The notes beneath the pieces are model-generated. The model worked only from the letters and a program-made list of their open reading frames with translations. It was not told the DNA's origin and made no database searches. This document shows, piece by piece, positions 19,266-39,403 of a stretch of 64,000 nt of DNA. Within the stretch, counting starts at the first letter, position 1, and each line of letters begins with the position of its first letter. A program made the position numbers and the translations under genes. Source of the DNA: Oligoflexales bacterium (GTDB taxonomy: Bacteria > Myxococcota_A > UBA9042 > DTJE01); NCBI GenBank assembly GCA_012840965.1, contig DUVQ01000009.1, positions 1-64,000 on the forward strand. Direction: 5' to 3'.

Positions 19266-19331
19266 CCGTGACCGTCAGGGTTCGAGTTATTCGAATTCAT
19301 GCTGATGTCTTTTCGATATGGAGTGTTTGGA

Positions 19332-20381
19332 ATGAGTAAAGTAATCAGAATCGGAATAAATGGCTTTGGGCGAATTGGACGTCTGGTGGCCAGAGCGGCC
19401 ATTGAGCAAGGTGGATTTGAGGTTGTTGCGATCAACGATTTGATCGATCCAAAAAATTATGCCAAGGGTGTCAGATTTAATGCCAAGCTGTTTGAGTTTG
19501 ACTCTGCCCATGGCCGTTTCCCTGGGACTGTCGAATATAACGACACCCAAATTATCATCAATGGTAAGCCCGCGGATTTTCTGTCTTTCAGGTCTCCTGA
19601 GGAGATTCCATGGGCCAAGTACGACGTCGATTTTGTCGTTGAAGCCACTGGTGTTTTCCGCAATCGCGCCCAGATTGAAGGCCATCTGAAGGCTGGTGCC
19701 AAGAAAGTGTTGCTTACGGTCCCCCCAAAGGATGCGATTGATGCCCTGATTGTTCATGGGGTCAACGACGCGGATCTGAAGCCTGAGCACAAGCTGATCT
19801 CTAATGCTTCGTGTACAACGAACTGTCTGGCTCCAGTGGTTAAGGTTCTGCACGAAAAATTCGGGCTTGTGCGTGGTTTCATGACCACAGTTCATGCCTA
19901 CACCAACGACCAAAAAATCCTGGACCAGATTCACAGCAGCGACCTGCGAAGAGCTAGAACTGCCGCAGTTAACCTGATCCCGACGACAACTGGTGCTGCC
20001 AAGACAATTGGCAAAATTATTCCAGAACTTGAAGGCCGTCTGGATGGTCTGGCAGTCAGAGCCCCTGTACAAGATGGCTCTTTGGTTGACTTTGTGTGTG
20101 AGCTGGAAAGAATCCAGGTTCGCGATCCAAAGGAAATGATTAAGGAAATCAATGCAGCCATGAAGGAAGCTGCAGAAGGTCCAATGAAGGGTGTATTGGA
20201 ATACTCAGAAGACGAACTGGTTTCCACTGATATCATTCATAACCCTGCTTCCTCTATCTTTGATGCGAATTCAACGATGGTCATGCCAAACAGCCGCATG
20301 GTTAAAGTGCTGGCTTGGTACGACAACGAGTGGGGTTACTCCTGCCGTTGCGTAGACCTAATGCGAATCGCCCAGAAGTAG
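19332..20381 (+). CDS. gapA: glyceraldehyde-3-phosphate dehydrogenase
   Basis: IRIGINGFGRIGRLVAR, SNASCTTNCLAPVVKVLHEKFG, WYDNEWGYSCR. Confidence 0.97.
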   Translation: MSKVIRIGINGFGRIGRLVARAAIEQGGFEVVAINDLIDPKNYAKGVRFNAKLFEFDSAHGRFPGTVEYNDTQIIINGKPADFLSFRSPEEIPWAKYDVDFVVEATGVFRNRAQIEGHLKAGAKKVLLTVPPKDAIDALIVHGVNDADLKPEHKLISNASCTTNCLAPVVKVLHEKFGLVRGFMTTVHAYTNDQKILDQIHSSDLRRARTAAVNLIPTTTGAAKTIGKIIPELEGRLDGLAVRAPVQDGSLVDFVCELERIQVRDPKEMIKEINAAMKEAAEGPMKGVLEYSEDELVSTDIIHNPASSIFDANSTMVMPNSRMVKVLAWYDNEWGYSCRCVDLMRIAQK

Positions 20382-20387
20382 TTCAGC

Positions 20388-20427
20388 CCAGCCCGCCCTG
20401 GCCATGCCCCCGTCCCTGCCCCCCGGG
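20388..20427 (+). repeat. (CCCTGY)n-type C-rich cassette, locus 4 (degenerate)
   Basis: cccagcccgccctggccatgcccccgtccctgccccccggg. Confidence 0.6.
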
Positions 20428-20517
20428 ATACACGCTTACCATAACCGGTAAAACAGGATACAATCCGCGCAGCTCTTTGTTAGAAACCAAAGGAAAAGCG
20501 GTCATGAAACAACAAAA

Positions 20518-22545
20518 ATGGGCTTTATGGGTCGTTGTAAGCCTGACACCCCCGATAACGGACAAGAACCTCCAGAGCCATGTGAAACTGCCGCCATGAC
20601 CGACAAGATAGAGGCAGCTACCACGGCGATGCAGGAGGCCAAGGCTGCCTATCAGGCCAAGCGTGAATCCGGTGAGCAAGAGGCAACAAGCGCTGCGATT
20701 GCCTATCTGAAAACCAAAGAAGCCGTATCTGATATAAACACCGACGGGTCGGCGATTTTTTTCACCTGGGCATCCAGCATTAGGTGCGGTATTTACACTG
20801 CCCCTATGTCCTCTTTCGTCGGAAGTTACGCCCCACAGCCCCCACCACCAGCTCCATCGCCGATAAATGCGCCCGTTGGCTCTGGGAAGGCCGCTGTTTA
20901 CTCAACGCTGCCCCCCGAGGAAGGCTCGCAAAACACTCACCAGGAAATAAGACGATTGCTAACAAATGCCGGCTTTGATGTTGCTCCCGCATTTGAAGGC
21001 CCTGCAGTTACCTTGGAAGCTATCCGCCGGATATCCAAGTTAGACGTGGTTTACATTCGAGTCGATGGTGCCACCGACGATGAAGTCTTCGCCTTTTTGA
21101 CCGGTCAGTCTCCAACTGGCGACCTCTGTCCAATGGCCGGCGAATTCAGTAGTCGCGCCATTGGACTTGGTACAACGGTAGACGACGATGGCACATACTT
21201 CACGATCTACCCGAATTTTTTCAAAGGCTTTGAATTTAAAGACGACAGTCTGCTTTATTTTTCGGCCTCTGACGGGCTCAGGAATGACAGTCTAGCATCC
21301 GTCATGCATGAAAAGGGACTAGGCGTGTTCATCGGCTGGAACAACAGCATATCGACTGGAACAGAGGACGAAAGGACAAACGTCACCCTTTTCGAGCGAC
21401 TTTTACAGGGTGCATCACTTGGCGCCGCGATGACAGAGCTAAAGCAGGAGGACGAATCATTCGGCCAATGCTCAATAGTAATCGACGATGAGGAAGTCCT
21501 TGCTGAGCTTGACTACTACCCTAAACTGGAGGGCGCATCAATCCGGATCGTTACTGGATGCGATGAAGATTCGGAGTGTTTGCAAGAGCCTGACGAACAA
21601 GTCTGTCACAGTCACCAGTGCACCAAAAAAAGTTGCGTTTTGGAGTGTCAGCAACAAGGATGCGGCGTCAGTTCTCAGTGTCCTGAGTTGTCATGTGGTA
21701 CTTGTGCTGATAATACAATCTGCGATAGCAACCTCAAGTGTATGCCGAAAGAGGTTAACGACTGTGTAGGTGGCTGGTGCTACATTCCTGCAGGCTCGTT
21801 TAAGATGGGAACTTTCGGCTCAGGGGTCAACGCTGATGAACAGCCGAAACATTCGGTCACGATTACACGCGCTTTCTATATACAGGAGACCGAGTTAACC
21901 CAAGGTCAGTGGAAGTTGCTTAATGACACGAATCCGTCTCACTTCAACACATGTGGTGATGACTGTCCCGTTGAGATGGTTAATTGGTTTGATGCTGCAA
22001 ACTATGCAAATCAGCTTTCCGAAAATGAGGGGTTCCAAAAGTGTTACCAGTTTAGCAATTGTGGAACTCCCTTGGGAACGAACCAGGACTGTGTAGTCAC
22101 TTTTGCAGGTCTTGATTGCAGAGGTTATCGTTTGCCTACTGAGGCTGAATGGGAATATGCGGCTCGGGCGGGTACTACGTCATATTACTATGGCGATCTT
22201 GATGAAATTGCTTGGTATTACAGCACCAGTCACAATAGAACAGAAAGAGTGGGCCAGAAAACACCTAATGCGTGGGGATTATATGATGTTTCTGGCAATG
22301 TGTGTGAGTGGGTTAATGACTTCTACAGTGCCACTTATTATGAGGATCATTGCAAATCAGGTTGTAAGGATCCTCTGGGTCCCTCGAATGGCTGGCAGCG
22401 GGTTCATCGCGGCGGCGGGTTTGACTTTGACCCAGATGAGGTGCGTTCAGCTAGCCGTGACAAACGCGCACCTAATAGTGGCTTCATGGCCCTAGGCTTC
22501 CGCCTAGTAAGGACGGTAACCGAGCCCGAATTCCCACCCTTGTAG
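20518..22545 (+). CDS. formylglycine-generating-enzyme (SUMF1/FGE-sulfatase) domain surface protein; N-terminus apparently frameshifted
   Basis: CYIPAGSFKMGTFGSGVNADEQPKHSVTITRAFYIQETELTQGQW...YRLPTEAEWEYAARAG...GFRLVRT; signal peptide MKQQKWALWVVVSL at 20504 lies in another frame. Confidence 0.85.
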   Translation: MGFMGRCKPDTPDNGQEPPEPCETAAMTDKIEAATTAMQEAKAAYQAKRESGEQEATSAAIAYLKTKEAVSDINTDGSAIFFTWASSIRCGIYTAPMSSFVGSYAPQPPPPAPSPINAPVGSGKAAVYSTLPPEEGSQNTHQEIRRLLTNAGFDVAPAFEGPAVTLEAIRRISKLDVVYIRVDGATDDEVFAFLTGQSPTGDLCPMAGEFSSRAIGLGTTVDDDGTYFTIYPNFFKGFEFKDDSLLYFSASDGLRNDSLASVMHEKGLGVFIGWNNSISTGTEDERTNVTLFERLLQGASLGAAMTELKQEDESFGQCSIVIDDEEVLAELDYYPKLEGASIRIVTGCDEDSECLQEPDEQVCHSHQCTKKSCVLECQQQGCGVSSQCPELSCGTCADNTICDSNLKCMPKEVNDCVGGWCYIPAGSFKMGTFGSGVNADEQPKHSVTITRAFYIQETELTQGQWKLLNDTNPSHFNTCGDDCPVEMVNWFDAANYANQLSENEGFQKCYQFSNCGTPLGTNQDCVVTFAGLDCRGYRLPTEAEWEYAARAGTTSYYYGDLDEIAWYYSTSHNRTERVGQKTPNAWGLYDVSGNVCEWVNDFYSATYYEDHCKSGCKDPLGPSNGWQRVHRGGGFDFDPDEVRSASRDKRAPNSGFMALGFRLVRTVTEPEFPPL

Positions 22546-22575
22546 CCCTGCCCCTGTCCCTGTCCCCGCCCCCTG
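22546..22575 (+). repeat. (CCCTGY)n cassette, locus 5
   Basis: ccctgcccctgtccctgtccccgcccc, directly after the stop codon. Confidence 0.9.
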
Positions 22576-22736
22576 ACGGTCGCGTCCGCTACCGCCTGCA
22601 CCGTCCCTGGCCCAAGGCCCTCCATCGTCTTGCCGCTGGGCTTGGCGATGTCAGTCAGGTCCACCGCCACGTACGGCAGCTTACTGGCAGTCAGACGACC
22701 AACCTCCGACAGGTAACTGGTCAGTCGAACATTACT
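22569..22736 (-). pseudogene. transposase remnant (IS4/IS1380-like DDE N-terminal core)
   Basis: Minus-strand translation SNVRLTSYLSEVGRLTASKLPYVAVDLTDIAKPSGKTMEGLGPGTVQAVADATVRG; D-x-[ST]-DIAKPxxKxMEgL is typical of DDE transposases. Confidence 0.6.
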
Positions 22737-22754
22737 GCAGTGGGGAAGGTCTAA
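22725..22754 (+). repeat. 30-bp inverted repeat, left arm
   Basis: tcgaacattactgcagtggggaaggtctaa; 29/30 identical to reverse complement of 27920-27949. Confidence 0.85.
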
Positions 22755-22822
22755 TTCGAACACCGTTGCTTCCAAATATCGGCTGCGGTACACTTGATGT
22801 CCCCAATGGGAGAAACGCGACC

Positions 22823-23941
22823 ATGAAACTCATGTTTTCATTCCTGGCTGTTTTGATCGCCTGCGGCTGTGCCTCAAGAGACTCTGCCTCAATATCACCC
22901 ACGAAGGGGGTTTCCGTTGATGAAATGGACACGGCTCAGTTCGATGGAACCGGCTGTGTGCTGTCCAGACAGATCGATGCAGTCACGGCGGAAATGATCT
23001 GCATGGAATTCGACGACATCTGGCAGATGGGCGCAAAAATTGTCACGGTGCGAATCGGGCAGGAGGGACTGGATTTCGTTAAGAAAGATTTGTCCAGTAT
23101 TGCTGAAAGCGACGAGTACGGCACGGCGTTCAAAAAATCAGTCAAGGACGCTGCTGATGGTGAATCTTACGTAAAGCCTATCGAAGTTGTTCTGTCTGGG
23201 TCGACGGCTACGCTACCGGGCACTGATTTCACGCTGAAGGTAGAGTCTTCGAATGAAGCGTTCGGTCTCGCGATTTCAAAGGACAATTTTGTCGTGAGCT
23301 CTTTCAGTCAGCCTCGGCCAGAGTTTCACGATATTTCGCTGGTTGGTGCATGGTTTCTTGCTGATATGAAGGGGGTGCTCGCGCAGATCGTCGACCACCT
23401 CAACGCACCGGGCCGCAGCCCGAGTGTGGAGGGATTCAGATACGTCTATCTGTCCTTCAAGGACGCGCCGACCGGCCCTATTGAGCCGAAACCTTTGAAA
23501 CTGACTTACCGCAATACTAAAAGTAGACAGGCGTTCGATGTCATCTGGCCGTACATCAATGGGCGCTTGGAAATTGAGGACCTCCATATGGAAGGCGATT
23601 GGTCGAGCGATGCCCAGCCAGACCCCGGGTCTCTTATTGTCGAAGGTGACAACCTCCTGGCCTTCTTCGGCGCGGAGGTCATGTCGACGCTCCCCATGTA
23701 CTGGAAGGATCGACAGCGTGCAAACTTCGCATGCTTCTGGGAACCGGAATCCGTATATTGGACTGCAGAGAAGAAACTGGTCACCGTGAAGGGAATGTCT
23801 CTGGAAGCGATAGCATACCGACTGGTTCATTTGGAAGGTGATGGGTTTGACAGCAAAGAATACTGGGTATCACCAGAAGTCGGCCTGGTTCGTGGTCCGA
23901 ACATTGTTCTGGAGAAGGTCGTAGAAATGAATGCTAGGTGA
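22823..23941 (+). CDS. hypothetical lipoprotein
   Basis: MKLMFSFLAVLIACGCASRDS lipobox. Confidence 0.8.
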   Translation: MKLMFSFLAVLIACGCASRDSASISPTKGVSVDEMDTAQFDGTGCVLSRQIDAVTAEMICMEFDDIWQMGAKIVTVRIGQEGLDFVKKDLSSIAESDEYGTAFKKSVKDAADGESYVKPIEVVLSGSTATLPGTDFTLKVESSNEAFGLAISKDNFVVSSFSQPRPEFHDISLVGAWFLADMKGVLAQIVDHLNAPGRSPSVEGFRYVYLSFKDAPTGPIEPKPLKLTYRNTKSRQAFDVIWPYINGRLEIEDLHMEGDWSSDAQPDPGSLIVEGDNLLAFFGAEVMSTLPMYWKDRQRANFACFWEPESVYWTAEKKLVTVKGMSLEAIAYRLVHLEGDGFDSKEYWVSPEVGLVRGPNIVLEKVVEMNAR

Positions 23942-24016
23942 CCCGAGCGGTTCAGAAGGAGAGATGGCGCTTTCGCGGGTCCTTCTCGCATGCGCCTATG
24001 CCCTAGTTACCCGGCA

Positions 24017-27000
24017 TCAGTCGTTTCCGGTTCCGAACCAGCCCGTCGGAGGCGTCTCCATCATGAGCAATTCAACGCGGCGGTTGCGGGCATGGGCACG
24101 CGGCGAGTCGCCCGCTTGTACTGGCTGTCGCTTGCCAAACGAAAGCACGAACATCCGTTCGGCCGGGACTCCCATGTCGTCACTAAAAATCTGCGCCACG
24201 GATTCTGCACGGCGTGCGGCCAGCGCATCATTGAGTTCATCGGAGCCCCGCTTGTCGGCGTGACCCTCGACACGCAGGAAGGCCTTTGGATACTGCTGCA
24301 TTGCCAAAGCAATCTCGCGAAGGAACGGCATCATGGCAGGCGATGGATTGTGGTCGTTGGTCTCAAAGTAGACGGAACTGCTCGGAAGTTCTCGGGTCAG
24401 CACGCGCATCAATCGGTGGATCCGGCCCCCCGACGCCAGGATGAGCTGCCCATCAACAACGGCTAGGCCACTGGAGGCGTTCTGCTCGTAGCCAAGTCCC
24501 ACAGGAAAGAACTCGAATCCCCCATTCTCGCTGCACTGAACCTCACGGTGCGAAACGGCGCAGACCACCTCGGGGGATGTCCCCAACCGAACAAGGCGCC
24601 GCGCCCCGCTGCCGGGCGCCAAAACACGTGTCCAGTTCCCCGAATCGCCGATGCTGCGATACAATGAGCCATCCGCGCCAGCCAGCAGCCAAATTTGCTG
24701 GTGGACCGGAAGCATCATCTGGCTCGCAACGCCCTTCAGGCAGGGTTCGGCCAGCCCACGCACCGCTCGCTCAACCCAGTTCTCGCCGCCATCGGTGGTG
24801 CAGATCATTCGGTCATGGCTGCTCAACACGCAAAATGCCCGGGGGTTGGTTTCCTGGCCTCGCCAGAACACGACCGGTATGGCACCAGCCGGAGGGGATA
24901 CGGACAGTGCCGGCACGACCATTCGCCGAATCCGTTCGGGTGCCGCGTCAAGGCGCCATTGCTCAAGAACAAGGGCCCCTGCGGCGTCCCTACCCAGAAC
25001 CAGAAATGCACTACGCGCCAACCAGGCCACGTGCAGCAGCTCCGACAGATCTGTGGTCACCTGACTCGGCCGGCCCTCCGCATCCAACAGCCACAGTCGG
25101 TGGTCGGATCCCACGATCAGGGACCGGTTACCTAATGGTCGCACCTCCCTAAATGGCGTTGCAATCTCGACAGCAAGTGGCAACCATTTTGCGCCACACG
25201 CATCCGAACGCAGTAGTCCATCGGATGCGGCAACCACTAGGCTCGGACACTCCGGGCGCCCACCAAGCCCCCACATGTCCAGGAAATCGACATCAGGAGA
25301 CGCACCGAACTCGTTCCACCGGTGGATCGGGCGTACGGCGACTTGTACCTCCCCGGCGTTTCGGGGAGGACGAACCCGAACCACGTACTGGCGAGACAGT
25401 CGTTCGGCAATCTCCTGTAAGGCATCAACGTAGGGCTGCGGACTCGTCGTATCGTCGGGAACGTGGATGACCTGTCCCTGCAGCTCCGAAGCGAGTTGCC
25501 TAAAGGCGGAGTCACCCGGGTTCGCGTCGGGCGTGACCAGTAGGAATGGCCGAATCTGGCGGGTCTCCAGTTCCCGGATCAGTTTCACGGTCTCAGGGTC
25601 GTTCGCTCGGATTACCGGCTCTCCACATGTATGAAGCATCGTGCGAAGCGCATTGTCCCAATAGCCATCTTGAACGCACCTGGGAAGGCCGAACTTCTGA
25701 GCACACTTGGACAGGAGCGACGGGGCATCCCCCCCCAGTTTCCGAATACAACCGGCTTCGCAGTTGGCAGCCTCGCCGGAAGCCAATGCCCGACAGTTCC
25801 TACGACACTGGAGAATCTCTTTCCCCTTGTTGCACGGACTATTCGAATGAGTCCGCAACCTGTCATGGCCTCCAGTGTTGATCTGCAACGGTTCGTCGGT
25901 CATCAGGACGACAACACGTTCGCCCTTCGCCCCCTGAAGCATTGTTCCCGCCTCCAAGAGCGCCGCCACACCGTCCTCACCGTCCCCGCCGCCAGTGGCG
26001 GATGACAGTTGCTGCATCCATCGGATGAACTGATCAGACTTGCTGGAGGGGCGATGCACATCCATCACCTGCTCGGTAAAGGTCAGCAACCCCAGGCGGG
26101 CACTGCGCCCCCGGTAGTTCAGGGTACTCGCGAAGTGGGCAACGGCCATGCGCACGGCCTCCCGTTCGGTGCTCATGCTGCCTGACATGTCGATCGCGAA
26201 AACAATGTCGAGGGGGCGTTCCTCCTCGAATCCCCAGAACTGGAGGATCTCGACCTTACGGCTGCCAAAGAAGACACGAAACGCATCGCGGGTCAGGCCA
26301 GAAACGCGGGCTCCAGATGCATCGCGCACCTCGATATAGAGATCAAGATCCCCGTTGGCCTGGCGGATCGTTCGAGTAATCGCCGCCCGCATCCCGAACG
26401 CATCCTTTCGCTGGAGTTCGACGAAGGCCAGAAACCGTTCCTCCGCCTCGCGGGATTCGCGGGCCTCTGGGAACCAGCGGACAAAGCGCAACCACTTCGC
26501 GGGCTGGTCCGCCAACTCGGCCTCCTGCCAGTAGAACGTCACCGCACGCTTCTGGAACCGTTCGGCCTCCCGATCATCCGGGAAAAGGCGCGCATATAGC
26601 AGACTCATCGGACCGGACTTGTGGCGGCTGGCGGCTTTGGCCAGTTTCGCACGAAAGCGCTCAGCCTGCTCGGAGATTCGTGGAACCGATTCCATTACTT
26701 GAAGCAGGGTATCCGTCTGTTCATCATCCAAAGGCTGGCCGGCCTCCAGTGCCTGTCTCAGCGCACGCAGGTGGTAGTCGGCAATCGCTCGCTCGAAGCG
26801 CTCCGGCCACTGCCCCCGGGTGTACCGTTCCAGACCGGCGATCAGCTGATTGAGTTCATGCGACGCGTGCGCATCCTGGAATGCACGACGCGCCTCCCGA
26901 TCGTAGAGCTCGGGTTCGAAAGGTACCATCTCGGGCCATTCGCCGTAAGCCTCCATGAGTTCCTGGTAGGCAGCGACGGTATCCGTACGAATGGCTAGAT

Positions 27001-27721
27001 CCCGGGCCACGCTCAATTCATTCACCCGCACTCCGGAAAGCATCTCGGCAGCCTCGGGCCAACTCTCATAGGTCAGGCGAAACTCGCGCCACCCAGCCAA
27101 CGAGGAAGCAGACTGGGCCTCTGCCAATGCCTTCAGGACTTCATGCTGCCGGGCTTGCGCAACCGACGCGGCGGCCTCCGGTCGTGCCCCGTATGTACGA
27201 AGAAAGGCGCGAACTGCATCGAGGCTGTCCTGGTCCAGCGCCCGACGCAACGCGATCTCGGCCTCACGTCGGCCGGCAATCTCCGCCTCGGGAACACCCG
27301 GGTAGCGAGACTGAAACTCCTGGTAGCCCTCCAGGGTATCCAGGGGTTGGGTTTGGTCCCGGAAGAACGCGGTGGCTTCGAAACCGCGTGACCGATGAAC
27401 CAGGTCCGCCACTATGGGCTCCCGGGCGTAACGCCTCGCGAATTCCCGGTAGGCCTCGACCGTGTCAGCACGTCGAGCCAATCCCAGCCGCGCCTCGCCC
27501 ACCAGAACAAAGACTTCATCGCGCTCGGGCGGGTGCTTGCCCCGCGCCTGCTGCTTGTCCAACCAGGACTGCCCTTTGCTCACAACGCGGTCCAAGGAGC
27601 CGTTATCCAGGAGTTTGCGAAGGGATACCGGCAGACCGGCACATCCGGTTCCCAGGAGGCACAGCCCCAGGGCAACAACAACGATTCGGGAGAATTGCTT
27701 GGAACTACTCATACACCTCAC
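24017..27721 (-). CDS. VWA-domain / OmpA C-terminal chimeric lipoprotein
   Basis: Lipobox LCLLGTGCAG; VWA MIDAS DIVFAIDMSGSMS; OmpA VYFETNDHNPSP...VEGHADKRGSDELNDALAARRAESV. Confidence 0.9.
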   Translation of the reverse strand: MRCMSSSKQFSRIVVVALGLCLLGTGCAGLPVSLRKLLDNGSLDRVVSKGQSWLDKQQARGKHPPERDEVFVLVGEARLGLARRADTVEAYREFARRYAREPIVADLVHRSRGFEATAFFRDQTQPLDTLEGYQEFQSRYPGVPEAEIAGRREAEIALRRALDQDSLDAVRAFLRTYGARPEAAASVAQARQHEVLKALAEAQSASSLAGWREFRLTYESWPEAAEMLSGVRVNELSVARDLAIRTDTVAAYQELMEAYGEWPEMVPFEPELYDREARRAFQDAHASHELNQLIAGLERYTRGQWPERFERAIADYHLRALRQALEAGQPLDDEQTDTLLQVMESVPRISEQAERFRAKLAKAASRHKSGPMSLLYARLFPDDREAERFQKRAVTFYWQEAELADQPAKWLRFVRWFPEARESREAEERFLAFVELQRKDAFGMRAAITRTIRQANGDLDLYIEVRDASGARVSGLTRDAFRVFFGSRKVEILQFWGFEEERPLDIVFAIDMSGSMSTEREAVRMAVAHFASTLNYRGRSARLGLLTFTEQVMDVHRPSSKSDQFIRWMQQLSSATGGGDGEDGVAALLEAGTMLQGAKGERVVVLMTDEPLQINTGGHDRLRTHSNSPCNKGKEILQCRRNCRALASGEAANCEAGCIRKLGGDAPSLLSKCAQKFGLPRCVQDGYWDNALRTMLHTCGEPVIRANDPETVKLIRELETRQIRPFLLVTPDANPGDSAFRQLASELQGQVIHVPDDTTSPQPYVDALQEIAERLSRQYVVRVRPPRNAGEVQVAVRPIHRWNEFGASPDVDFLDMWGLGGRPECPSLVVAASDGLLRSDACGAKWLPLAVEIATPFREVRPLGNRSLIVGSDHRLWLLDAEGRPSQVTTDLSELLHVAWLARSAFLVLGRDAAGALVLEQWRLDAAPERIRRMVVPALSVSPPAGAIPVVFWRGQETNPRAFCVLSSHDRMICTTDGGENWVERAVRGLAEPCLKGVASQMMLPVHQQIWLLAGADGSLYRSIGDSGNWTRVLAPGSGARRLVRLGTSPEVVCAVSHREVQCSENGGFEFFPVGLGYEQNASSGLAVVDGQLILASGGRIHRLMRVLTRELPSSSVYFETNDHNPSPAMMPFLREIALAMQQYPKAFLRVEGHADKRGSDELNDALAARRAESVAQIFSDDMGVPAERMFVLSFGKRQPVQAGDSPRAHARNRRVELLMMETPPTGWFGTGND

Positions 27722-27919
27722 CCTTGGAAGTCTTGCCGAGAAACAAGCATGTGGTCGCCGCTCCTGTCAGTCACCGGCCCTTCCCGACGTATGGGTCCCG
27801 AGGGTCGTTGCGGGTGACGCGGGCGTTCCCTTCACCGGCGCCACCGACAGCGCCACGGACAGCAGCGACGCTGAACAGCCAATGCCACCTATCACAGATG
27901 CTCGCAGGTCGCAATGATT

Positions 27920-27949
27920 TTAGACCTTCCCCACTGCAATAATGTTCGA
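27920..27949 (-). repeat. 30-bp inverted repeat, right arm
   Basis: Reverse complement tcgaacattattgcagtggggaaggtctaa. Confidence 0.85.
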
Positions 27950-28054
27950 ATTGGTCAAGATCGAGCGCATACGACTACTTTGATTCAAGAAAAATGGACA
28001 TAAATTCGGCGAGTTATCGAGGACAACAACAAACATTGCATCGTCTACGAGGGG

Positions 28055-28070
28055 AGTGGGGAAGGTCTAA
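28055..28070 (+). repeat. partial third copy of inverted-repeat core
   Basis: agtggggaaggtctaa identical to the core at 22739-22754. Confidence 0.7.
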
Positions 28071-28072
28071 AT

Positions 28073-28150
28073 TCCCGCCCCTGCCCCTGTTCCCGTCCCC
28101 TTCCCCGTCCCTGTCCCCGCCCCTGTCCCTGTCCCTGTCCCCGCCCCTGT
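28073..28150 (+). repeat. (CCCTGY)n cassette, locus 6
   Basis: ttcccgcccctgcccctgttcccgtcc...ccctgtccctgtccctgtccccgcccctgt. Confidence 0.9.
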
Positions 28151-28206
28151 GCTATAGTTCCAGCCGGTTCCTTTTTCTTTCTCTAACACAAAGGAGTGAA
28201 TTTGCC

Positions 28207-29124
28207 ATGATCGTAAGGACGCCCTCTGAATTTTTGGACGCCTTTGCTGCTCTTAAGCCTCTCGAAAACCCACAGGCCACGGCCAGGGGCGCCTTTTTGC
28301 TGGCTCCAGCCGATTTTTCCTTGGCCCAGGAGTCTGCCACCGATAACAAATACATGGCCATGGACCAGGTCGTAGACCCCTTGAAGGCCTTGGCCCAACA
28401 CTCTAACTTGGCCTCTGCACTGCGTCAGGATGTGCCAATCATCGTGTTCCCTGGGGATCCGACTACTCCCGACGCTGTATTTCCCAACAACGTGTTTGGG
28501 ACTGCCCCTGGGACGTTTATCGTTGGAAAAATGCGCCATCCTGTGCGCCAAGTTGAGGCAACTCGTCAGGACATTCGCTCATTTTTCACTGACATAATGG
28601 GCTACAACCAGTATGACATGTCCGGACGTGACGACTTGGTGGCTGAACTTACAGGGTCCTTGATCATCGATCACATCCGCAAGGTCGGTTATGTCGGCCT
28701 GACTGAGCGGTGCGACCTGGAAGGAGCAAAGGCCATGCATGAGGCCTTTGGCCTGCGTCTGACCTTTGCCTTTGATTTGGCTGAAGGTGAGTACCACACC
28801 AACGTGGTGTTTACTATGCTGGCTGGGCGTGGCGCCATTTTGTCGGCTGACGGCTATAAGGATCCTGAGGTACCAAAGGCAATCGCCAAGGCTTATGACA
28901 ATAAAGTCGTGTGGTTAACACCACAGCAAAAGGCCGCGTTTGCTGGAAACGGAATCACCCTGACAGAAGATAGAGTCTGGCTAAGCACAGCAGCAGTCAA
29001 TTCGTTGACCAAGGAACAAATGGACCAATTCGCGAAGTACGGCTTTAAGGTCGGCCACGTTGATTTATCTGAAATAGAAAAAGCAGGTGGAAGCCTGAGG
29101 TGCTGTGTTGCCGAAATCTTTTAA
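28207..29124 (+). CDS. amidinotransferase/arginine deiminase-superfamily hydrolase (CtlX-like)
   Basis: DAVFPNNVFGTAPG, ELTGSLIIDHI, EYHTNVVFTMLAGRGAI, GGSLRCCVAEIF; 27994 ORF start is inside the repeat. Confidence 0.8.
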   Translation: MIVRTPSEFLDAFAALKPLENPQATARGAFLLAPADFSLAQESATDNKYMAMDQVVDPLKALAQHSNLASALRQDVPIIVFPGDPTTPDAVFPNNVFGTAPGTFIVGKMRHPVRQVEATRQDIRSFFTDIMGYNQYDMSGRDDLVAELTGSLIIDHIRKVGYVGLTERCDLEGAKAMHEAFGLRLTFAFDLAEGEYHTNVVFTMLAGRGAILSADGYKDPEVPKAIAKAYDNKVVWLTPQQKAAFAGNGITLTEDRVWLSTAAVNSLTKEQMDQFAKYGFKVGHVDLSEIEKAGGSLRCCVAEIF

Positions 29125-29171
29125 TTAATTCCAACACTTAAAACATCTTTTATCGCATCAAAAGCCCACTG

Positions 29172-30212
29172 TTACTGAATCTCTTTTGGTCCTGGGACAA
29201 TAAACATTTTGTCCTCTAAGGACTCCTCGTCTGTAGCGGCTGCCTGCGATTCAGAACCCCGCCATCCTTTAAACGCATCGATTGCCAATGCTTGGTCCCC
29301 TGTGGTTTCAGTCGGCACCCACCCTGTAGCCATCTGATCCTGCAGGGCCCACATCTCCTGCTTTAGCTTGGCACGAAGTTTTTTGCGCCTGTAGACAAAC
29401 AAAAACAGCAGAGTTATCGCCAACCATATCGCAGCGGCACTTGTCAGCACCACTATCAAGCTATCAATCCGACTAAACGAAGATTTAAAGTCCTCAAAGG
29501 CCTCTTCTGGATAGACTCCAAATGCACGATGAAAGGCCGCTTCAAACGGCTCACCATTGCGCAAGAACTTGATAGTATTAGCTATTCCCTCACCAGATGA
29601 AACGCGGTTTAGATATCTGAAAAACAGCATCGATTGGGAATATGCCAGATGTACCTGAGCGCCAGAACTTGGGAAACCGTTTGTGATCTCGGCCAAGGGA
29701 ATAAACGACTTGGTTAAGCTGGCATCCATGGACGACCTCAGACGATCAGCCACGCTTTCATCGGCCACAAGCATGGCAAACCCTTCATGAAACCAGCGCG
29801 GGACCTGACGCCCTTCAAGCGCTGAGTCCAGGTATATGTGGGCAAGTTCATGGACGAACGTGTCACGAACCTTAAAAACCTCGTTTCCTCGCGCTGATAT
29901 GACTATTTTGTCCATGTGCGACATGGCAATACCAGCGACCCAACCCTTGATTGGCCGCGACGTGCCCACCATTTCGCTCATGGATTCATCATCGGAAGCA
30001 ATTGCAACCTCGATCACCCTTGGGTCATCAATGCCTAAGACACCTAAAACATAGCGACGCTTTGATTCTGCATCACGCTCAAGCCACTCTACGACGTGCT
30101 TTGCCCCTGGAGCAGGGTTAAACACAAAATGAGGGTTTTTCTGGGCGTACGCCAAACCCGAGGTAAACAAAAGCACTGCTGCCATGACTGGAACTATTTG
30201 CAAATTATTCAT
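29172..30212 (-). CDS. peptidase MA-family (gluzincin) metallohydrolase, secreted and membrane-anchored
   Basis: Signal peptide; HELAHIYLD with downstream E (WFHEGFAM); C-terminal TM. Confidence 0.85.
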   Translation of the reverse strand: MNNLQIVPVMAAVLLFTSGLAYAQKNPHFVFNPAPGAKHVVEWLERDAESKRRYVLGVLGIDDPRVIEVAIASDDESMSEMVGTSRPIKGWVAGIAMSHMDKIVISARGNEVFKVRDTFVHELAHIYLDSALEGRQVPRWFHEGFAMLVADESVADRLRSSMDASLTKSFIPLAEITNGFPSSGAQVHLAYSQSMLFFRYLNRVSSGEGIANTIKFLRNGEPFEAAFHRAFGVYPEEAFEDFKSSFSRIDSLIVVLTSAAAIWLAITLLFLFVYRRKKLRAKLKQEMWALQDQMATGWVPTETTGDQALAIDAFKGWRGSESQAAATDEESLEDKMFIVPGPKEIQ

Positions 30213-31716: not shown

Positions 31717-31921
31717 AATAGCTTCTCCGCAAACACGGCAATCATACTATCTATTCGATTACTCAATGGTCAAGGTCTTGGCTAAAACAGGTCCTATCTC
31801 GTACCCTAAGACACTCACTCAAATTGCTTTGCCCATGTAGACTGCTTTCTCGATAATGGAGTACACTAGTGAAGGTGGAGCAGTGAGCATTAGGGTTTTC
31901 GGCGTGTTAGAAGGAGGCTTT

Positions 31922-32851
31922 ATGAATCTTATCACTGCAGAATGGCGGTTTTTGACCCTTGCGATCACTGTTCTCGGCGCGGCGCTCTTTTTGGGGTGTG
32001 ACGCTGTTGGACAGGGGGAAGAACCGGACGGGGATGCTAATTCGAGGCAGGTTGACGCGGTCGTCGAAGCTCCTCCACTTGAGGGAGGTTCCAACAACGC
32101 CGAGGACCGAGTTGACCTTGATTCAACTGGGAATCTACGACGTACAAACCCTGAGGTGAGCTTGGAGGATCCCAAGCCATCAGATGCCTCGCAGGATGAT
32201 GCGGACGAGCCTGAGTCTGACCCTTTGGATCCTGAAACACCGGCGGATACCTCGACTGACGATGGGGACGTTGAAAGGCTTTGTGAAAAGACTGAGTGTT
32301 GTTTCGACGTGGCCATAGATCCGGCCCCCGTCTCGCTCTCGCCCTTCCAGATTCAGCGGGTGACCGAGTCGGCTTACCCAGTGCCAGATGGGGTTCCTCT
32401 GGAGAGTGACCTTCTACTAATCAGGGCAAAGTGGCGCGACGTCTTCGCGGATCCTTCGAGTGGGGTCTGTCAAACGCCCTGTGGTGGACACTGTGTGCCG
32501 TCGGGGGGAAAGGTTTATTTGGTGGACACTCGGACCGACGCGGTACGGTTCGTAGGGGACGAGGACACCGAGACCTGGAAGAGCTGGGGGCCAGCTATTG
32601 TTCACACTCCCACCATCTATGGGTATGAAGTGGAGCTTGATGACGGGAAGCTGTACTACTTCAATTCAACGGACAACGCATGGCAAGAGCCGGCTGCGGG
32701 CAACGGGACAGTACGCCCCTGGGCGGTATGTTTTCTGACGGTGGGGCGAAACGGTCGCTGCATTCATTTCCCACTTACAGCCGATCCAGGCCCGTGCCCC
32801 CTAGATGTGCCAGAGTACTTGATGTCTGGTGGCCAATGCCCCACTTTCTAA
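31922..32851 (+). CDS. lipoprotein with acidic linker
   Basis: Lipobox LGAALFLGCDA then Asp/Glu-rich stretch. Confidence 0.75.
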   Translation: MNLITAEWRFLTLAITVLGAALFLGCDAVGQGEEPDGDANSRQVDAVVEAPPLEGGSNNAEDRVDLDSTGNLRRTNPEVSLEDPKPSDASQDDADEPESDPLDPETPADTSTDDGDVERLCEKTECCFDVAIDPAPVSLSPFQIQRVTESAYPVPDGVPLESDLLLIRAKWRDVFADPSSGVCQTPCGGHCVPSGGKVYLVDTRTDAVRFVGDEDTETWKSWGPAIVHTPTIYGYEVELDDGKLYYFNSTDNAWQEPAAGNGTVRPWAVCFLTVGRNGRCIHFPLTADPGPCPLDVPEYLMSGGQCPTF

Positions 32852-32918
32852 ATGAACCCCTAAGAACCTTCACATCAAGCAAAGCATCAGCAACGTGGTG
32901 CCAATACCTAGGACAAGG

Positions 32919-34084
32919 TTACTGCTCTACTTGATCTCTCAAATCAAGCAAAACCTGAATGTACTCGTCAGGTAGGTCGGCGTGTATGTCGTGGGCAGAC
33001 TTAAAGTCCCCTATATATTTGCCATTTGGTATTAAATCCACAACTCTTTGAGCATCTATTTCGTCCATAGCGGCTAGAAGAACGTCGTTTCCATCGTAAT
33101 ATCCGGGTGCAGTTACCTCATTAGGTGCTACATGCATCACAACTGTAGGCGACTTGATGCTTTTCAGGGTTTCTTCTTGGTCAAATCCAGCAAACCATGA
33201 AAAATCATAAAAAGTCACTCCGAATCTCAAATCATAATTGCCTGACCCGTCCTGCATATTCGCATTCAAGGCATAAAGGGCGTTTATCCCAAGCTTGGGT
33301 GGGTAGTACCATATTTTGGGTATTTCCCCGGGATGTTTATCCAAATACCTCAATGCCGGGGCTTTTACCAACTGATTCCAGGCTTGTGGATGCTGGGCGT
33401 CAAAGACTTCCTGCATGTAGTCATTTTCTAGCGAAAACTGCATGAATGTATCTATCTCACTTTGATTCAGATAGTCATACATGTTCTTAAACCCTAGCCA
33501 CGCAATTGTTTTTTCCGCCCTTCCAGGTAGGGTTGAAAAGAAAGGACCATCCTCCAAAACAGTCGCAATGATGTGGTCAGGTCTGTTGGCAGAAACATAA
33601 GCGGCAAGCAATGCTCCCGAGGAGTGCCCCGAAATATAGACCTTGTCCTTAATCACGTTTTCGATGAACCATATTATGTCGTTTCCTATTGTGACCGCGT
33701 TGTATTTATCGCGTTGTATTTATCAGGATTCTTGGATGATTTTCCGTGCCCATAGTAGTCAAGGGCGTAAACATGAAAATGTTCTGATAGCCTTGGCAGT
33801 ACTTTTGCGTAATCGTAGCAGTCGACCTGTTGCCCATGAAGTAAAAGGAGTTTTGGTCCGTTGTTTGGGCCCTCAATGTAATAAATCTCCAAACCACCTT
33901 CTAACCTGGCCATGTCTTCGGTAAAACCTAGTTTGTATCCACTTTCTTCTAAAAAACTTGCGTTTAGGTAGTCGAAATTCAAATTCCTGTACGCAAAAAC
34001 GCAAACGGCCATTGTTACTGCTAGAGCGACTATTCCAACTGCTACGGCGAGCTTAAACTTCATAGCTTTCGTCGATTTTGCCAA
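32919..34084 (-). pseudogene. alpha/beta hydrolase split by 14-bp tandem duplication (two ORFs: 33686-34084 and 32919-33656)
   Basis: LLHGQQVDCYDYAKVLPRLSEHFHVYALDYYGHGKS in first ORF and VYISGHSSGALLAAYVS in second; removal of one 14-mer restores SKNPDKYNAVTIGNDIIWFIENVIKDKVYISGHSSG. Confidence 0.9.
33696..33723 (+). repeat. 14-bp tandem duplication
   Basis: cgcgttgtatttat x2, perfect. Confidence 0.97.
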
Positions 34085-34122
34085 AACAGCACCTTCAAAG
34101 CCGACATCAGAGTTGATCAGCT

Positions 34123-34674
34123 TTAATGTTCCTTTCTTCTACGTAAGGATCGATGCATCTTTAAAACCTCGCCAAAGGCTATTTGGCGATCAAATGCCTC
34201 TGCTATGCTGTATCCTTCTAGCTGTACCAAAAACGCCCTGATGATTCCGGCGTGTGTTACCACCAAAACGTTTTGTGATTCAACGTTTGGCAAATCAGCA
34301 ATGAAGTCGTCAACTCGTTTTGTCATTTGTACGTAGGATTCGCCTTGTGGGGTCGGCACATTGACGTAATCGTCAAACCATCGTTTTCCAGCCTCTTGGG
34401 CGTAGATGTCGTCCCATTTTACCCTTTCCCACTTGCCAAAACTGTATTCTGTTATGCGCTTGTCTATGATGACGTTTTTTGAAAATGCTTCTGCCAAACG
34501 CGTGCATCGCGTGAGCGGGCTGCTGTAGACCTTGCTAAAGGCCACCCCTTCTAGCTGTTTTTTTACAGCCTCCAACTCCTGCTCAAAGCTGTCAGCAAGC
34601 CCAACATCTGTATTGCCGTAACAAATGCCTTTTGGCATGGAAACGCTGGTATGACGAAGCAAATATAAGGCCAC
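34123..34674 (-). CDS. cobC: histidine phosphatase, probable alpha-ribazole phosphatase
   Basis: LLRHTSVSMPKGICYGNTDV, VTHAGIIRAFL; adjacent to cobS/cobT. Confidence 0.85.
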   Translation of the reverse strand: MALYLLRHTSVSMPKGICYGNTDVGLADSFEQELEAVKKQLEGVAFSKVYSSPLTRCTRLAEAFSKNVIIDKRITEYSFGKWERVKWDDIYAQEAGKRWFDDYVNVPTPQGESYVQMTKRVDDFIADLPNVESQNVLVVTHAGIIRAFLVQLEGYSIAEAFDRQIAFGEVLKMHRSLRRRKEH

Positions 34675-34706
34675 AGCTGGATAAGACCCTTAAAGAAGGC
34701 GACCCA

Positions 34707-35492
34707 TTATACCCACACAGCGATGGCTGCATATGCTAGATAGAAGGCTATTTCGTTGAATTGCTGCATGGCTCCCAATACATCACCGGTAAAGCCACCA
34801 ATTCTTTTTTCGATGTATCGCTTCAAGACTATGTAAATCAAGGCGAATATGGGGAGAATTGCTAACATTATTTTCCAATTCAAAAAAACCAAAGGAACGG
34901 CTGCCAAAACTGCAGCAATAACTATCGTCGCAGTATCAGGCTTGCGTCGAGTATGCCCCGCCTTGCTGTTTTCGACGCGTGCGTATTGCGAGTTTCTGAT
35001 CATCAAAATGGGGGTAAACCTGCTTGTGGAGTGAGCCGCCACCAGCACCCAGGGAAGCTGTGACGACGATATAGAAACAAAAAGCGAAAACTTAAGTAAA
35101 AACGCCAGGATCAAAGCCATGACGCCGTACGCTCCAGAACGGCTATCCTTCATTATTTCCAGGATTCTTTCTTTGGTATAGCCACCTCCAAAACCATCGA
35201 AAAAGTCAGCAAAACCGTCCTCGTGCAAGGCCCCTGTCGCAAGGATCATTGCTGCCAAAGCTGCAACGGCCGCAACTGATTGTGGAAGACGCAAGGCCAA
35301 AGCAAATAAGGCAAAAACCACCGCCGCCAAACCACCAACAATAATTCCCACCAAAGGAAAGTAGCGTAATGCCGGCGTAAGTTTTTCCTCGCAAAAATCA
35401 ATCTGCCCCACCGGAATGCGAGAATAGTACTGTAAGGCGTGAAGAAATAAACTAAATTCCTGCTTCATGCTTTCTATCAATTTGCTCATCAC
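34707..35492 (-). CDS. cobS: adenosylcobinamide-GDP ribazoletransferase
   Basis: ALQYYSRIPV, ALHEDGFADFFDGFGGG, TGDVLGAMQQFNE. Confidence 0.94.
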   Translation of the reverse strand: MMSKLIESMKQEFSLFLHALQYYSRIPVGQIDFCEEKLTPALRYFPLVGIIVGGLAAVVFALFALALRLPQSVAAVAALAAMILATGALHEDGFADFFDGFGGGYTKERILEIMKDSRSGAYGVMALILAFLLKFSLFVSISSSQLPWVLVAAHSTSRFTPILMIRNSQYARVENSKAGHTRRKPDTATIVIAAVLAAVPLVFLNWKIMLAILPIFALIYIVLKRYIEKRIGGFTGDVLGAMQQFNEIAFYLAYAAIAVWV

Positions 35493-36489
35493 AAACTTCT
35501 GCTTCGTCGAAGCTTGCCATTTGGTTCAAGAAATTAACCGCAGATTCCAAAATTGGGTAGGCAACCGCAACGCCTGTGCCTTCGCCCAAACGTAAATCAA
35601 GGTGCAGTATCGGGTCGGCCTTCATGTATTCAAGCATGTGGCGGTGTCCTGGCTCGTTGGATGAGTGGCAATAGATAACATTATCCAACACATCGGGCTG
35701 CATGTTGTAGGCCGCCAAAAAGCCGGAAGTTGCGATAAACCCGTCTGCCAGAATCGTCATATTCAATCGTCTGGCCTCTATAACCCCACCACAAATCATG
35801 GCTATTTCCAGTCCGCCAAACGTTGCCAGCGTTTCAATTGGCGTTTTTGGGTCATATTTTTCAGCTACTTGGCTCAAAATCCGACATTTGCGTTCCATTC
35901 CGTCGGCCTTAAGCCCGGTACCAGGTCCAACACAATCGCGAAGTGGTATGCCCGCGATTTTATGTAGTAACAACGACGCTGACGACGTGTTACCGATGCC
36001 CATTTCACCAAATCCTATTACATTGCAGCCTCGATTAAACTCCTCTTGCACACACTGCGCACCGGTTTCAATCGCCTTTTGACATAGTTCGATTGACATT
36101 GCTGGTGCGTGCATCATGTTTTGCGTGCCACGAGCCAACTTGTGATTCTCAACGTTTGTGCCTTCAGGAAAGTCGTAATCAACACCAGCATCAATGACTC
36201 TAAGGTGGATGCCGTGTTGGCGTGTGAACACATTTATTCCAGCACCACCTTGCACAAAATTCATGACCATTTGCCAGGTAACTTCTTTGGAATAAGCGCT
36301 GACACCTTCATCGACTATGCCGTGGTCGGCAGCAAAAGTCAGAATTGCGGGTTTTCTTAACTCGGGTGTCGAGCTGTTTTGGATTATGCCAATTTTCAAA
36401 GCCAATTCTTCTAATTTCCCCAGAGATCCCAAGGGCTTGGTCCGGGTGTCTATTTTCCTTTGCAATTCTTGTCTTATCATTTCCTGCAC
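35452..36489 (-). CDS. cobT: nicotinate-nucleotide--dimethylbenzimidazole phosphoribosyltransferase
   Basis: DTRTKPLGSLGKLEELA, FAADHGIVDEGVSAY, GEMGIGNTSSA, HLDLRLGEGTG. Confidence 0.95.
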   Translation of the reverse strand: MQEMIRQELQRKIDTRTKPLGSLGKLEELALKIGIIQNSSTPELRKPAILTFAADHGIVDEGVSAYSKEVTWQMVMNFVQGGAGINVFTRQHGIHLRVIDAGVDYDFPEGTNVENHKLARGTQNMMHAPAMSIELCQKAIETGAQCVQEEFNRGCNVIGFGEMGIGNTSSASLLLHKIAGIPLRDCVGPGTGLKADGMERKCRILSQVAEKYDPKTPIETLATFGGLEIAMICGGVIEARRLNMTILADGFIATSGFLAAYNMQPDVLDNVIYCHSSNEPGHRHMLEYMKADPILHLDLRLGEGTGVAVAYPILESAVNFLNQMASFDEAEVCDEQIDRKHEAGI

Positions 36490-36711
36490 CCTTAAAAAAT
36501 CAGCAGAAGCAGCTAATCAAGCCTCAGATTGGGGCCATTCTAATTGGCTTTTGAATAAAGACAAGGTTGCAAGGACGCGAAAGCGCCACCGTCTAATTGA
36601 TGTCAAAGGTTCACAATTATGGCTATGATCCTGGGATAAATTGAGAAAATTCCTGAACTGGTCAAGAATAGGCACCTTGGGCGTTGTCGGCAAAAGTTTA
36701 TTTTTGAGCGT

Positions 36712-37569
36712 GTGATGATAGGTAAATTTGGTTCCGCTTTAGGTGTGATTTTCAGAGGTGTTGGGCAAGTAATGCTTCAAGAAAATGCTTTGACTGGTCT
36801 GCTGTTGCTGGTCGGCATTTTTTATGGCTCGATTTCCATGGGCCTTGCAGCGCTTTTGGCCACTGTTTGTGGCTCACTGACCGCTCGTGCACTTGGCTTT
36901 GGTAATGCCAACTTGCGCAAGGGGCTGTATGGGTTTAGCGCCGCACTGGTCGGAGTGGCGGTGATGCTTTTCTTGCGGCCGTCGCTTGTCGCTTGGGCCA
37001 TTGTGATTGTTGGCGCTGCGTTAGCGGCCGTCCTCCAGCACCTTTTCATAAAGCTCAAAATCCCGGCGTTCACCCTGCCGTTTGTTTTGGTGACGTGGCT
37101 CATCCTCTTTGTTTGCAGAACTTTTTGCGCCGATCTGTTGGCTGTCCCGACGCCAGCTTTGGCTAACTCGTGGGATTCCTTGGCTGACGGCTTTAAAGGC
37201 TTTGGTCAGGTGATTTTTCAGCCAAGCCTAGTGTCAGGTTTGCTTTTCTTTTTGGCAGTGTTTATAAGTTCGCCCATAGCAGCGCTGTACGGTCTTTTTG
37301 GTGCCATTGTATCTGCAATGTTGGCCTTTGCCTTCGCGGCACCCATCACAGATATAAACCTTGGCATCTATGGATTCAACGCGGTCCTTTGTTCGCTGGT
37401 ATTTGCTGGAAATCGTGTAAGGGACGGCTTTTGGGTCTTGATCGCGGTACTGCTGTCGCTTGCCATAAGCCTGCTGATGATGCGTTTGCAGTTAACACAA
37501 CTGACCTTCCCGTTTGTGCTTGCCACTTGGATTACCTTGTTGCTTAAGCGACTGCTGCCGAAGTCATAA
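36712..37569 (+). CDS. urea transporter family membrane protein
   Basis: GVGQVMLQENALTGLLLLVGIF, LYGFSAALVGVA, LGIYGFNAVLCSLVF. Confidence 0.85.
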   Translation: MMIGKFGSALGVIFRGVGQVMLQENALTGLLLLVGIFYGSISMGLAALLATVCGSLTARALGFGNANLRKGLYGFSAALVGVAVMLFLRPSLVAWAIVIVGAALAAVLQHLFIKLKIPAFTLPFVLVTWLILFVCRTFCADLLAVPTPALANSWDSLADGFKGFGQVIFQPSLVSGLLFFLAVFISSPIAALYGLFGAIVSAMLAFAFAAPITDINLGIYGFNAVLCSLVFAGNRVRDGFWVLIAVLLSLAISLLMMRLQLTQLTFPFVLATWITLLLKRLLPKS

Positions 37570-37711
37570 GGGACGTTTAATTCAACCCAAAAAACCGGCT
37601 GGCTAGGTTGCCGACACCCGTTTAATCCTATAACATCCGTATTTCAGACAGGAGAAACCTGATTTAGGCAGACACTGATAAATACAGGTTTTTAGACTGG
37701 AGGGATATAAC

Positions 37712-39364
37712 ATGAATCGAACAACCTTTTGGAAGCTATATTTTGTGACAATTCTTAGCGTTCCAATCTTGGCAGTGTCCTGTGCATCTTCAAGCGACAC
37801 CCCCACCGACCTGCCAGATTCTGTGTCCGATGTTGGGCAGGATACAAACGATAAGGATGTGCCGACGGGCGACGCGGATGTGACGGATGACACAGTGGCG
37901 CCGGGTGACATAAGCCCCGCGGATGCTACTGACGACACAGATTTAACAGGAGACGCGGATGTGGCCGATGATGCTGATGTGACGGGCGACAATGAAACGA
38001 TTGACGATACAGATGACGGCTTCACAGACGATCAGCTGGACAAGTGCCTGACTTGTGCTCCTGGCGATCAGGTCCTGCCACATCTAGCCGTAAGTGGGTC
38101 CTCAAACGTTTGGCTATCCTGGTTTTCATCCACCAGCACAGGCTTCGACATGTACTTGCAGCTGATGGATAAGGACGGTAAGCCAAAACTTGACGCCAAT
38201 GGCTTATTGGTCAGCGACCACCCGTCCGCAACTTGGGTCATGGACTATGGGCTTGCATCCGACAATGAAGGCAACGCCATACTTGCCTTTAGCGACATGC
38301 GCGTCGCAAACCGCCTGACGCTTCGTGCTTACAAGATTGCTCCTGAAGGAACATTCATGTGGGGCGATGACGGCATCGCGCTTTCGCTTGGGTCGGGCGA
38401 AGACATGTCTCCCACTTTGGTTGTGGCTAGCGACGGCGATGCGGTCGTGGCCTGGACTGAAAACGATGATAGGGCTGAAACTAGTATCATCCGTGTTCAG
38501 CGCATTGCCCCTGACGGAACCTTGCGGTGGCCTGAAGGGAAGACACTTACCCCCGACAATGAAAACCTGTTTGTGCGGCCCCAAGTGGTCGCCGCACCAG
38601 ACGGCGGATTCATCGTTATGTGGGTGGAGACTCCAGACATGATGAGCACCGACCGAGTCATTTGGGCCCAGAAATTTGCAGCGGATGGAAGCGCCTTGTG
38701 GGACGATCCGGTAACAGTCAGTAATTCCATGGGCATCGCCTTCTATCACGCACCACTGATGGTCGCCGATGCTAGTGGCGGAGCCTTCGTGGCTTGGTTT
38801 GGGGTGGGGCAATCCGAACTCAAGGGATTCATCCAACACGTGGATTCAACAGGAGCTTTGACCATGGGGGCAGAGGGAGCCGCTTTTTCCACATCCGAAA
38901 CCACCAACCAAATCATCAGTGGTTTAGTCTTCGTACCTGAAACTGGCGGGGCTGTGGTTTCCTGGAAGGAAACGTCATTAAATCAAGATGATTGCGGCCT
39001 ATATCTGCAAGCGTTTAGCGCGACCGGAACACGGCTATGGGCTGACGAAGGACTGGCCTTGGTGCCACGAACCGACACACAGGTACTGGCTGGTGCGCTG
39101 AAAGCCCACGGACAAAGCGTCATCGTGCTTTACGGGGAATGGATCTACGAAAACATCTTGGATGCTCAGATGGCGGTCGCACAAGTACCTCTTGTCGCCG
39201 AGCCTGAACCGGTTTCAACCGTGTTATGTAATCACGTAACCAGCAAGGACCATGCAACTGGAAGCGACCTTGTAAACAACGGCTTTTGGTTTGCATGGGA
39301 GGAGGTAGGGGCCAGCGAAGAAAAAGACATCTACGGCGCTTTCTGGTCGCCCACAGCCCCCTGA
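37712..39364 (+). CDS. lipoprotein with Asp/Thr-rich linker and repeated beta-propeller-like domain
   Basis: Lipobox VPILAVSCASS; DADVTDD repeats; repeated VQRIAPDGTLRW / QKFAADGSALW motifs. Confidence 0.8.
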   Translation: MNRTTFWKLYFVTILSVPILAVSCASSSDTPTDLPDSVSDVGQDTNDKDVPTGDADVTDDTVAPGDISPADATDDTDLTGDADVADDADVTGDNETIDDTDDGFTDDQLDKCLTCAPGDQVLPHLAVSGSSNVWLSWFSSTSTGFDMYLQLMDKDGKPKLDANGLLVSDHPSATWVMDYGLASDNEGNAILAFSDMRVANRLTLRAYKIAPEGTFMWGDDGIALSLGSGEDMSPTLVVASDGDAVVAWTENDDRAETSIIRVQRIAPDGTLRWPEGKTLTPDNENLFVRPQVVAAPDGGFIVMWVETPDMMSTDRVIWAQKFAADGSALWDDPVTVSNSMGIAFYHAPLMVADASGGAFVAWFGVGQSELKGFIQHVDSTGALTMGAEGAAFSTSETTNQIISGLVFVPETGGAVVSWKETSLNQDDCGLYLQAFSATGTRLWADEGLALVPRTDTQVLAGALKAHGQSVIVLYGEWIYENILDAQMAVAQVPLVAEPEPVSTVLCNHVTSKDHATGSDLVNNGFWFAWEEVGASEEKDIYGAFWSPTAP

Positions 39365-39403
39365 TCTGATATAATTGGACGACTTTCATTGAACGGAAAT
39401 AAC

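Follow-up and report, generated by a model that had tools for sequence, protein, structure and literature searches.

A G+C-rich gene pair between remnants of an IS4-like element in an uncultured Myxococcota genome: a probable composite-transposon-like remnant

Does the G+C-rich gene pair at 22755–27919 of a contig from an Oligoflexales bacterium belong to the genome in which it lies, and if it does not, what brought it there? The window analyzed here comprises bases 1–64000 of the 82-kb contig C217 (DUVQ01000009.1), which belongs to a 3.09-Mb metagenome assembly in 218 contigs (GCA_012840965.1; genome G000). A first-pass annotation, made from the sequence alone, had described the pair as a putative inserted island between two inverted repeats, with a transposase remnant at its left edge. 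Our answer, which we consider rather better than an even bet, is that 22755–27919 is a horizontally acquired cargo of two genes that once formed the middle of a composite-transposon-like unit, a decayed acquisition of a known kind. The argument draws on a family of insertion sequence (IS) tips and their orientation, a remnant of the transposase, the foreign composition of the DNA between the tips, and the absence of the genes from this site in relatives.

Composition sets the segment apart, as the first-pass annotation had noticed by eye. Measured against 184 kb of contigs drawn from the 3.09 Mb of its own genome, the 5.2-kb core (22755–27919) has 59.6% G+C, whereas same-size windows have 49.2 ± 1.5% and reach a maximum of 54.0% (z = +6.7). 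Among 106 long open reading frames (ORFs; mean third-position G+C, or GC3, of 0.51, SD 0.056), the two genes of the core rank first and second: a VWA/OmpA lipoprotein gene with a GC3 of 0.687 and an orphan lipoprotein gene with 0.598. The dinucleotide distance of the lipoprotein gene is 40 to G008, a member of the same family, versus 122 to its own genome, and that of the VWA/OmpA gene is 46 versus 106.

The core is bracketed by a 30-nt inverted repeat (22725–22754 and 27920–27949) complementary at 29 of 30 positions (97%), exactly as first annotated; by our own estimate, such a match is expected by chance in 8 kb with a value of about 1e-9. Searching the genome with the first 18 bases of the repeat returned 15 places, 14 of them credible and one, on C191, looking like chance. 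The repeat is thus dispersed, at about 14 places, a result that the first-pass annotation would have counted against an island, but it is relevant to the segment because it is the end of an IS. When aligned, the tips form two classes with the outermost 16 bp in common (TTAGACCTTCCCCACT); the left-end (LE) class continues GCARTAATGTTCGAGTTGGTYRTGATCGAGCGCATACG and the right-end (RE) class continues CCCCTCGTAGACGATGC, and the sequences beyond the tips are unrelated between copies. The tip at 22725–22754 (minus strand), aligned with six other LE copies, is the first 30 bp of an LE and faces right into the island. The tip at 27920 opens a complete 151-bp miniature derivative of the IS (27920–28070, plus strand) with the ends TTAGACCTTCCCCACT and AGTGGGGAAGGTCTAA, in which an LE (27920–28015) is joined to an RE (28023–28070), each matching other copies; a third, 16-bp copy of the repeat at 28055–28070, which the first-pass annotation had missed, closes it. 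One more complete short element with one LE and one RE, of 225 bp, lies at C135:5889–6113. The internal deletions of these two elements differ, so they are separate deletion derivatives and not one amplified miniature inverted-repeat transposable element. Across 89 related genomes the tip family was not found, except for one chance match with one mismatch in G076.

The orientation of the tips determines what the inverted repeat means. At 22754 as well as at 27920 the tip is a left end directed into the 5.2-kb segment, which therefore sits between two elements and is not an element with terminal repeats of its own. A transposon ending in the 30-bp repeats could accordingly be ruled out, as the tips face the wrong way. 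What survives of the proposed island is its foreign composition and its absence from the site in six relatives; the idea that terminal repeats of its own delimit it does not. A more general caution follows, namely that an island may be bracketed by inverted repeats that are not its own ends, and that orientation decides.

Immediately outside the left tip, the minus strand at 22575–22724 matches the region around the first catalytic Asp of an IS4-like transposase (...VAVDLTDIAKP...), a single copy in the genome and the transposase remnant that had been noted there. The reference for this match is a 430-aa transposase from a distant Myxococcota genome (L098:658–1950), which itself matches DDE_Tnp_1 (6.4e-9) and NCBIfam transpos_IS4_3 (1.6e-13, below the curated cut-off). 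In single comparisons, the remnant is 50% identical to residues 118–150 of this protein over 34 aa (E = 5e-8), and a fragment at C114:4396–4734 is 33% identical to residues 262–364 over 103 aa (E = 1e-12). Besides that fragment, pieces of the transposase gene lie inside tip-bounded copies at C114:5714–5902, C114:2601–2783, and C135:5957–6100. In the reference, the Y-(2)-R-(3)-E-(6)-K motif (YLRRWGSEEATRALK), a hallmark of the IS4 family (PMC2266710), is complete, whereas each decayed copy deviates from it: C114 has YLRRWSVKDWARACK (E to K) and C135 has YLRH*SVEDSARACK (R to H, one stop). By their alignments to the reference, the window and C114 fragments are related to IS4-type DDE transposases. 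However, known IS4 subgroup ends read CA.., CT.., or -AATR.. (Table 1 of PMC2266710), and the TTAGACC ends of this element fit no IS4, IS701, ISH3, or IS1634 signature in that survey. Nor do the mini-elements, which are old derivatives, display the 7–13 bp target duplication of the IS4 family (PMC2266710). With ends outside the listed subgroups and no readable target duplication, the label is limited to IS4-like, as judged from these sequence features, and the element is placed in no IS4 subgroup. Relatives of its transposase were not found in the plasmids or viral contigs searched.

The contigs C74 and C151 both begin, and C154 ends, about 126 bp inside a copy of the element, and an intact IS copy has probably collapsed in the assembly. 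Breaks of this kind in a metagenome assembly of 218 contigs raise the suspicion that a stretch from a co-occurring strain of higher G+C was joined into the contig through a shared repeat. We regard such an assembly or binning artifact as very improbable: the shared repeat is 30 bp, well under the roughly 126-bp contig-end overlaps seen in this assembly, two independent false joins would be required, and the contig contains no runs of N.

Comparison with relatives places the arrival of the segment in the lineage of the window. In G001, the closest relative compared and a Myxococcota metagenome assembly (JARKOL01, isolate D137_maxbin.042_sub), the backbone MopE–phasin–GAPDH and peptidase MA–TonB–ExbD is uninterrupted, with a GAPDH–peptidase gap of about 65 bp. 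G009 and G003 have the same backbone order with gaps of about 130–140 bp, a single unrelated gene separates GAPDH from the peptidase gene in G005 and G012, and G002 is rearranged at the site. The FGE, lipoprotein, VWA/OmpA, and DDAH genes found here are absent from the site in six of these six relatives. It follows that the whole of 20382–29171, between GAPDH (19299–20381) and the peptidase-MA gene (29172–30212), was gained in this lineage; the FGE gene, the island, and the DDAH gene together are a lineage-specific insertion. This insertion is larger than the island first drawn, and its outer modules are native in composition. The FGE-sulfatase domain protein (20518–22545, plus strand; Pfam PF03781, E = 1.2e-42) is encoded at 50.7% G+C (z = +0.6) with a GC3 of 0.50 and a dinucleotide distance to its own genome of 42; the region of the DDAH-type hydrolase gene (28207–29124, plus strand; PF19420, E = 8.5e-45) has 50.9% G+C (z = +0.5) and a distance of 41. 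Within 20382–29171, foreign composition is confined to the IS-bracketed core. The DDAH gene is missing in 88 of the 89 relatives searched, and the remaining one gave a weak match. A tRNA/integrase genomic island brings an integrase gene and attachment-site repeats; no integrase was found among the scanned proteins of 20382–29171, and direct repeats spanning the insertion are just short ones or (CCCTGY)n tracts.

These tracts had been seen as cassettes outside the island on both sides. They are present, at 22546 and 28074, but they occur genome-wide (about 20 in about 190 kb, or roughly one per 9 kb), a frequency that excludes them as a specific target or an island boundary. In the window they lie at 164–242, 9260–9295, 9817–9856, 20391–20420, 22546–22566, and 28071–28150, with others on other contigs; three lie between modules of the 8.8-kb insertion.

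How might IS copies have brought the core in? In the donor, the cargo would have lain between two inverted copies of the IS4-like element, and the element's DDE transposase would have acted on the outer ends to move the unit, or else recombination between IS copies would have delivered it. After insertion, the left copy would have decayed to 180 bp, of which 30 bp come from its inner end and 150 bp from the transposase gene, with its outer end lost; the right copy would have shrunk by internal deletion to the 151-bp mini-element, both ends intact. We infer that the cargo arrived with the IS copies and that they did not land next to it afterwards. If so, an acquired segment can still be traced from tiny IS remains: to its left a 30-bp end with a scrap of transposase, to its right a 151-bp mini-element.

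Several results weigh against this reading. The left outer IS end is missing, such that the composite unit cannot be closed, and the assembly holds no intact IS copy, C74, C151, and C154 breaking inside the element. The check for target-site duplications suggested in the first-pass annotation found none around the island, and none that convinces at either complete mini-element: the flanks of 27920–28070 share only a 3-bp ATT (27917/28071) and those of C135:5889–6113 show no duplication. The dinucleotide distance of the segment to its own genome (106) falls within the 95% range of 5-kb windows (134); as such windows scatter widely in this measure, the claim of foreign composition rests on G+C and GC3. 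Finally, one of the other tip-bracketed intervals in the genome, C135:6114–8002, is native in composition. The missing outer end and the lack of target-site duplications also speak for a rival reading, in which the foreign segment would have arrived by another route (on a plasmid, with a phage, or by natural transformation, and then through homologous or illegitimate recombination) and IS copies would have inserted at its edges independently, in non-essential DNA that tolerates insertions. Several copies of the same IS do sit in other accessory DNA, including beside a diversity-generating retroelement. This alternative deserves to be taken seriously even though we think it unlikely: composition shifts at or near both tips and not at a distance from them, and the layout recurs on C135 with cargo of the opposite G+C.

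The recurrence on C135 concerns a tip-bracketed interval at 4074–5888 with 35.4% G+C (z = -5.9) that carries an AbiEi/AbiEii pair (phage defense) upstream of the rpsP–rimM–trmD–rplS–rnhB operon. It is flanked by a right-end remnant of about 70 bp and by the complete 225-bp mini-element, a layout like that of the window. Two further bracketed intervals, C114:2794–4244 (36.3% G+C, z = -5.2) and C114:4857–5504 (36.7%, z = -4.1), hold AlbA_2/HATPase_c_4-type genes. Four of the five bracketed intervals are outliers, on the high as well as the low side of G+C, which argues for a tie between the element and acquisition and not for one lucky place. A single element family thus links several segments of foreign DNA, including one for phage defense, within the genome of one uncultured member of the Myxococcota. 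Recurrence is nevertheless no proof of transport, since IS copies also accumulate in foreign DNA. A bolder proposal is that the element and its miniature derivatives form a recurrent gene-capture system, in which pairs of ends, one often a mini-element of 150–225 bp, bring in segments of 35% to 60% G+C such as the AbiE pair, and in which units bounded by mini-elements may still be movable in trans by an intact copy collapsed in the assembly. We hold this only tentatively and rather doubt it.

Such a system would be an IS4-type counterpart of TIME-COMP, in which miniature elements derived from Tn3 delimit composite units (PMC4133298). Like a composite (class I) transposon, the window unit has two IS copies of the same family, with LE tips at 22754 and 27920 in inverted orientation, flanking foreign cargo without a role in transposition. 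It differs in that both copies are decayed, no transposase gene is left in the unit, and in place of two outer ends and a target-site duplication there is an intact right end (28070), no left one, and no duplication. With the left outer end and the duplication absent, "composite-transposon-like remnant" is the appropriate term, not membership of the class. The likeness to TIME-COMP is closer, as there too a transposase-less miniature element bounds cargo that differs in G+C from the host replicon, and the unit resembles an IS-driven composite transposon (PMC4133298). In the window, however, the ends are IS4-like and not Tn3-type, a complete mini-element is found on one side only, and mobility is putative. 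The shared terminal repeat is 16 bp, against the 38-bp Tn3-type terminal repeats with 5-bp duplications of TIME-COMP. Composite transposons, and TIME-COMP in particular, are therefore the closest described architecture by analogy, one that the window unit appears to work like without being an instance of it.

The cargo itself offers clues to its source. The orphan lipoprotein gene (22823–23941, plus strand; lipobox ...IACGC-AS) has no Pfam or NCBIfam match, no relative in 36 close genomes, and none that convinces in 379 genomes of the phylum or in plasmids, phages, or viral contigs; its structure, predicted without an alignment, is unusable (pLDDT 32). The VWA/OmpA lipoprotein gene (24017–27712, minus strand; Pfam PF13519, PF00092, and PF00691) encodes 1231 aa from an ATG at 27712, with the lipobox LLGTGC-AG. 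The protein has, in this order, about 400 residues of helical hairpins (a helical solenoid), a VWA domain into which a Cys-rich stretch is inserted, a region rich in beta structure, and, at the C terminus, an OmpA peptidoglycan-binding domain. An AlphaFold2 model from four sequences agrees with this domain order, its global fold being unreliable (mean pLDDT 65, pTM 0.36). To judge from its domains, the cargo probably encodes a protein of the cell envelope that is held there by a lipid and by peptidoglycan binding and has an adhesion or sensing face. A literature search on VWA/OmpA proteins in Myxococcota found no paper.

Full-length relatives of the VWA/OmpA protein are encoded in G001 (72% identity), G008 (42%), and G002 (41%), with a weaker one (30%) in another metagenome-assembled genome. 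The G001 orthologue, in a genome of 69% G+C, lies at another locus, beside thioesterase and EutE genes. Our genome has these two genes on C1; this contig stops 40 bp beyond the thioesterase gene, so the ancestral VWA site, where the gene lies in G001, is out of view. This leaves room for the idea that the gene is a native orthologue that moved within the genome from that site and kept an old high G+C: it is the sole full-length copy here, and its 72% identity to G001 lies within the range of other orthologues (about 47–86%; GAPDH 84–90%, peptidase 64%, TonB 61%). Yet all the other backbone genes examined share the low G+C of the genome, and a mere change of place would not exempt a single gene from it (GC3 0.687 vs a mean of 0.51); the neighboring orphan lipoprotein gene is GC-rich as well. 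We accordingly consider a move within the genome highly unlikely. On our preferred reading of horizontal acquisition, 72% is an ordinary orthologue distance for G000 and G001, so the donor was not G001 itself; plausibly, it belonged to the same genus or family and had a higher G+C. G000 and G001, in one genus, are separated by about 19 points of G+C (50% vs 69%), yet their GAPDH proteins are 84–90% identical.

The retroelement mentioned above lies on C114 (L016), with its parts at 119–247, 407–949, 934–1299, 1284–2297, and 2313–2441; a further part lies on C135 (L020, 119–247). It comprises FGE-type variable repeats, an HRDC gene, a bAvd gene, a reverse transcriptase, and a template repeat; template adenines are the site of 15 of 17 differences between variable and template repeat in one comparison and of 17 of 20 in the other. 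A right end of the IS lies 350 bp downstream, and part of a second copy of the template is at 4285–4392. The FGE gene of the window was considered as a current target of this retroelement and rejected, having no nucleotide match to the template repeat. Beside the same IS/retroelement cluster, C114:6460–7563 encodes an AAA_21 ATPase with a strong match to the candidate defense protein HEC-01A (2.5e-135). The window also contains a second stretch without a counterpart in relatives, 16.5 kb at 31717–48216, after which the backbone picks up again at 48217; it holds tandem repeats of 138 bp (40550–40999) and 132 bp (46485–47404).

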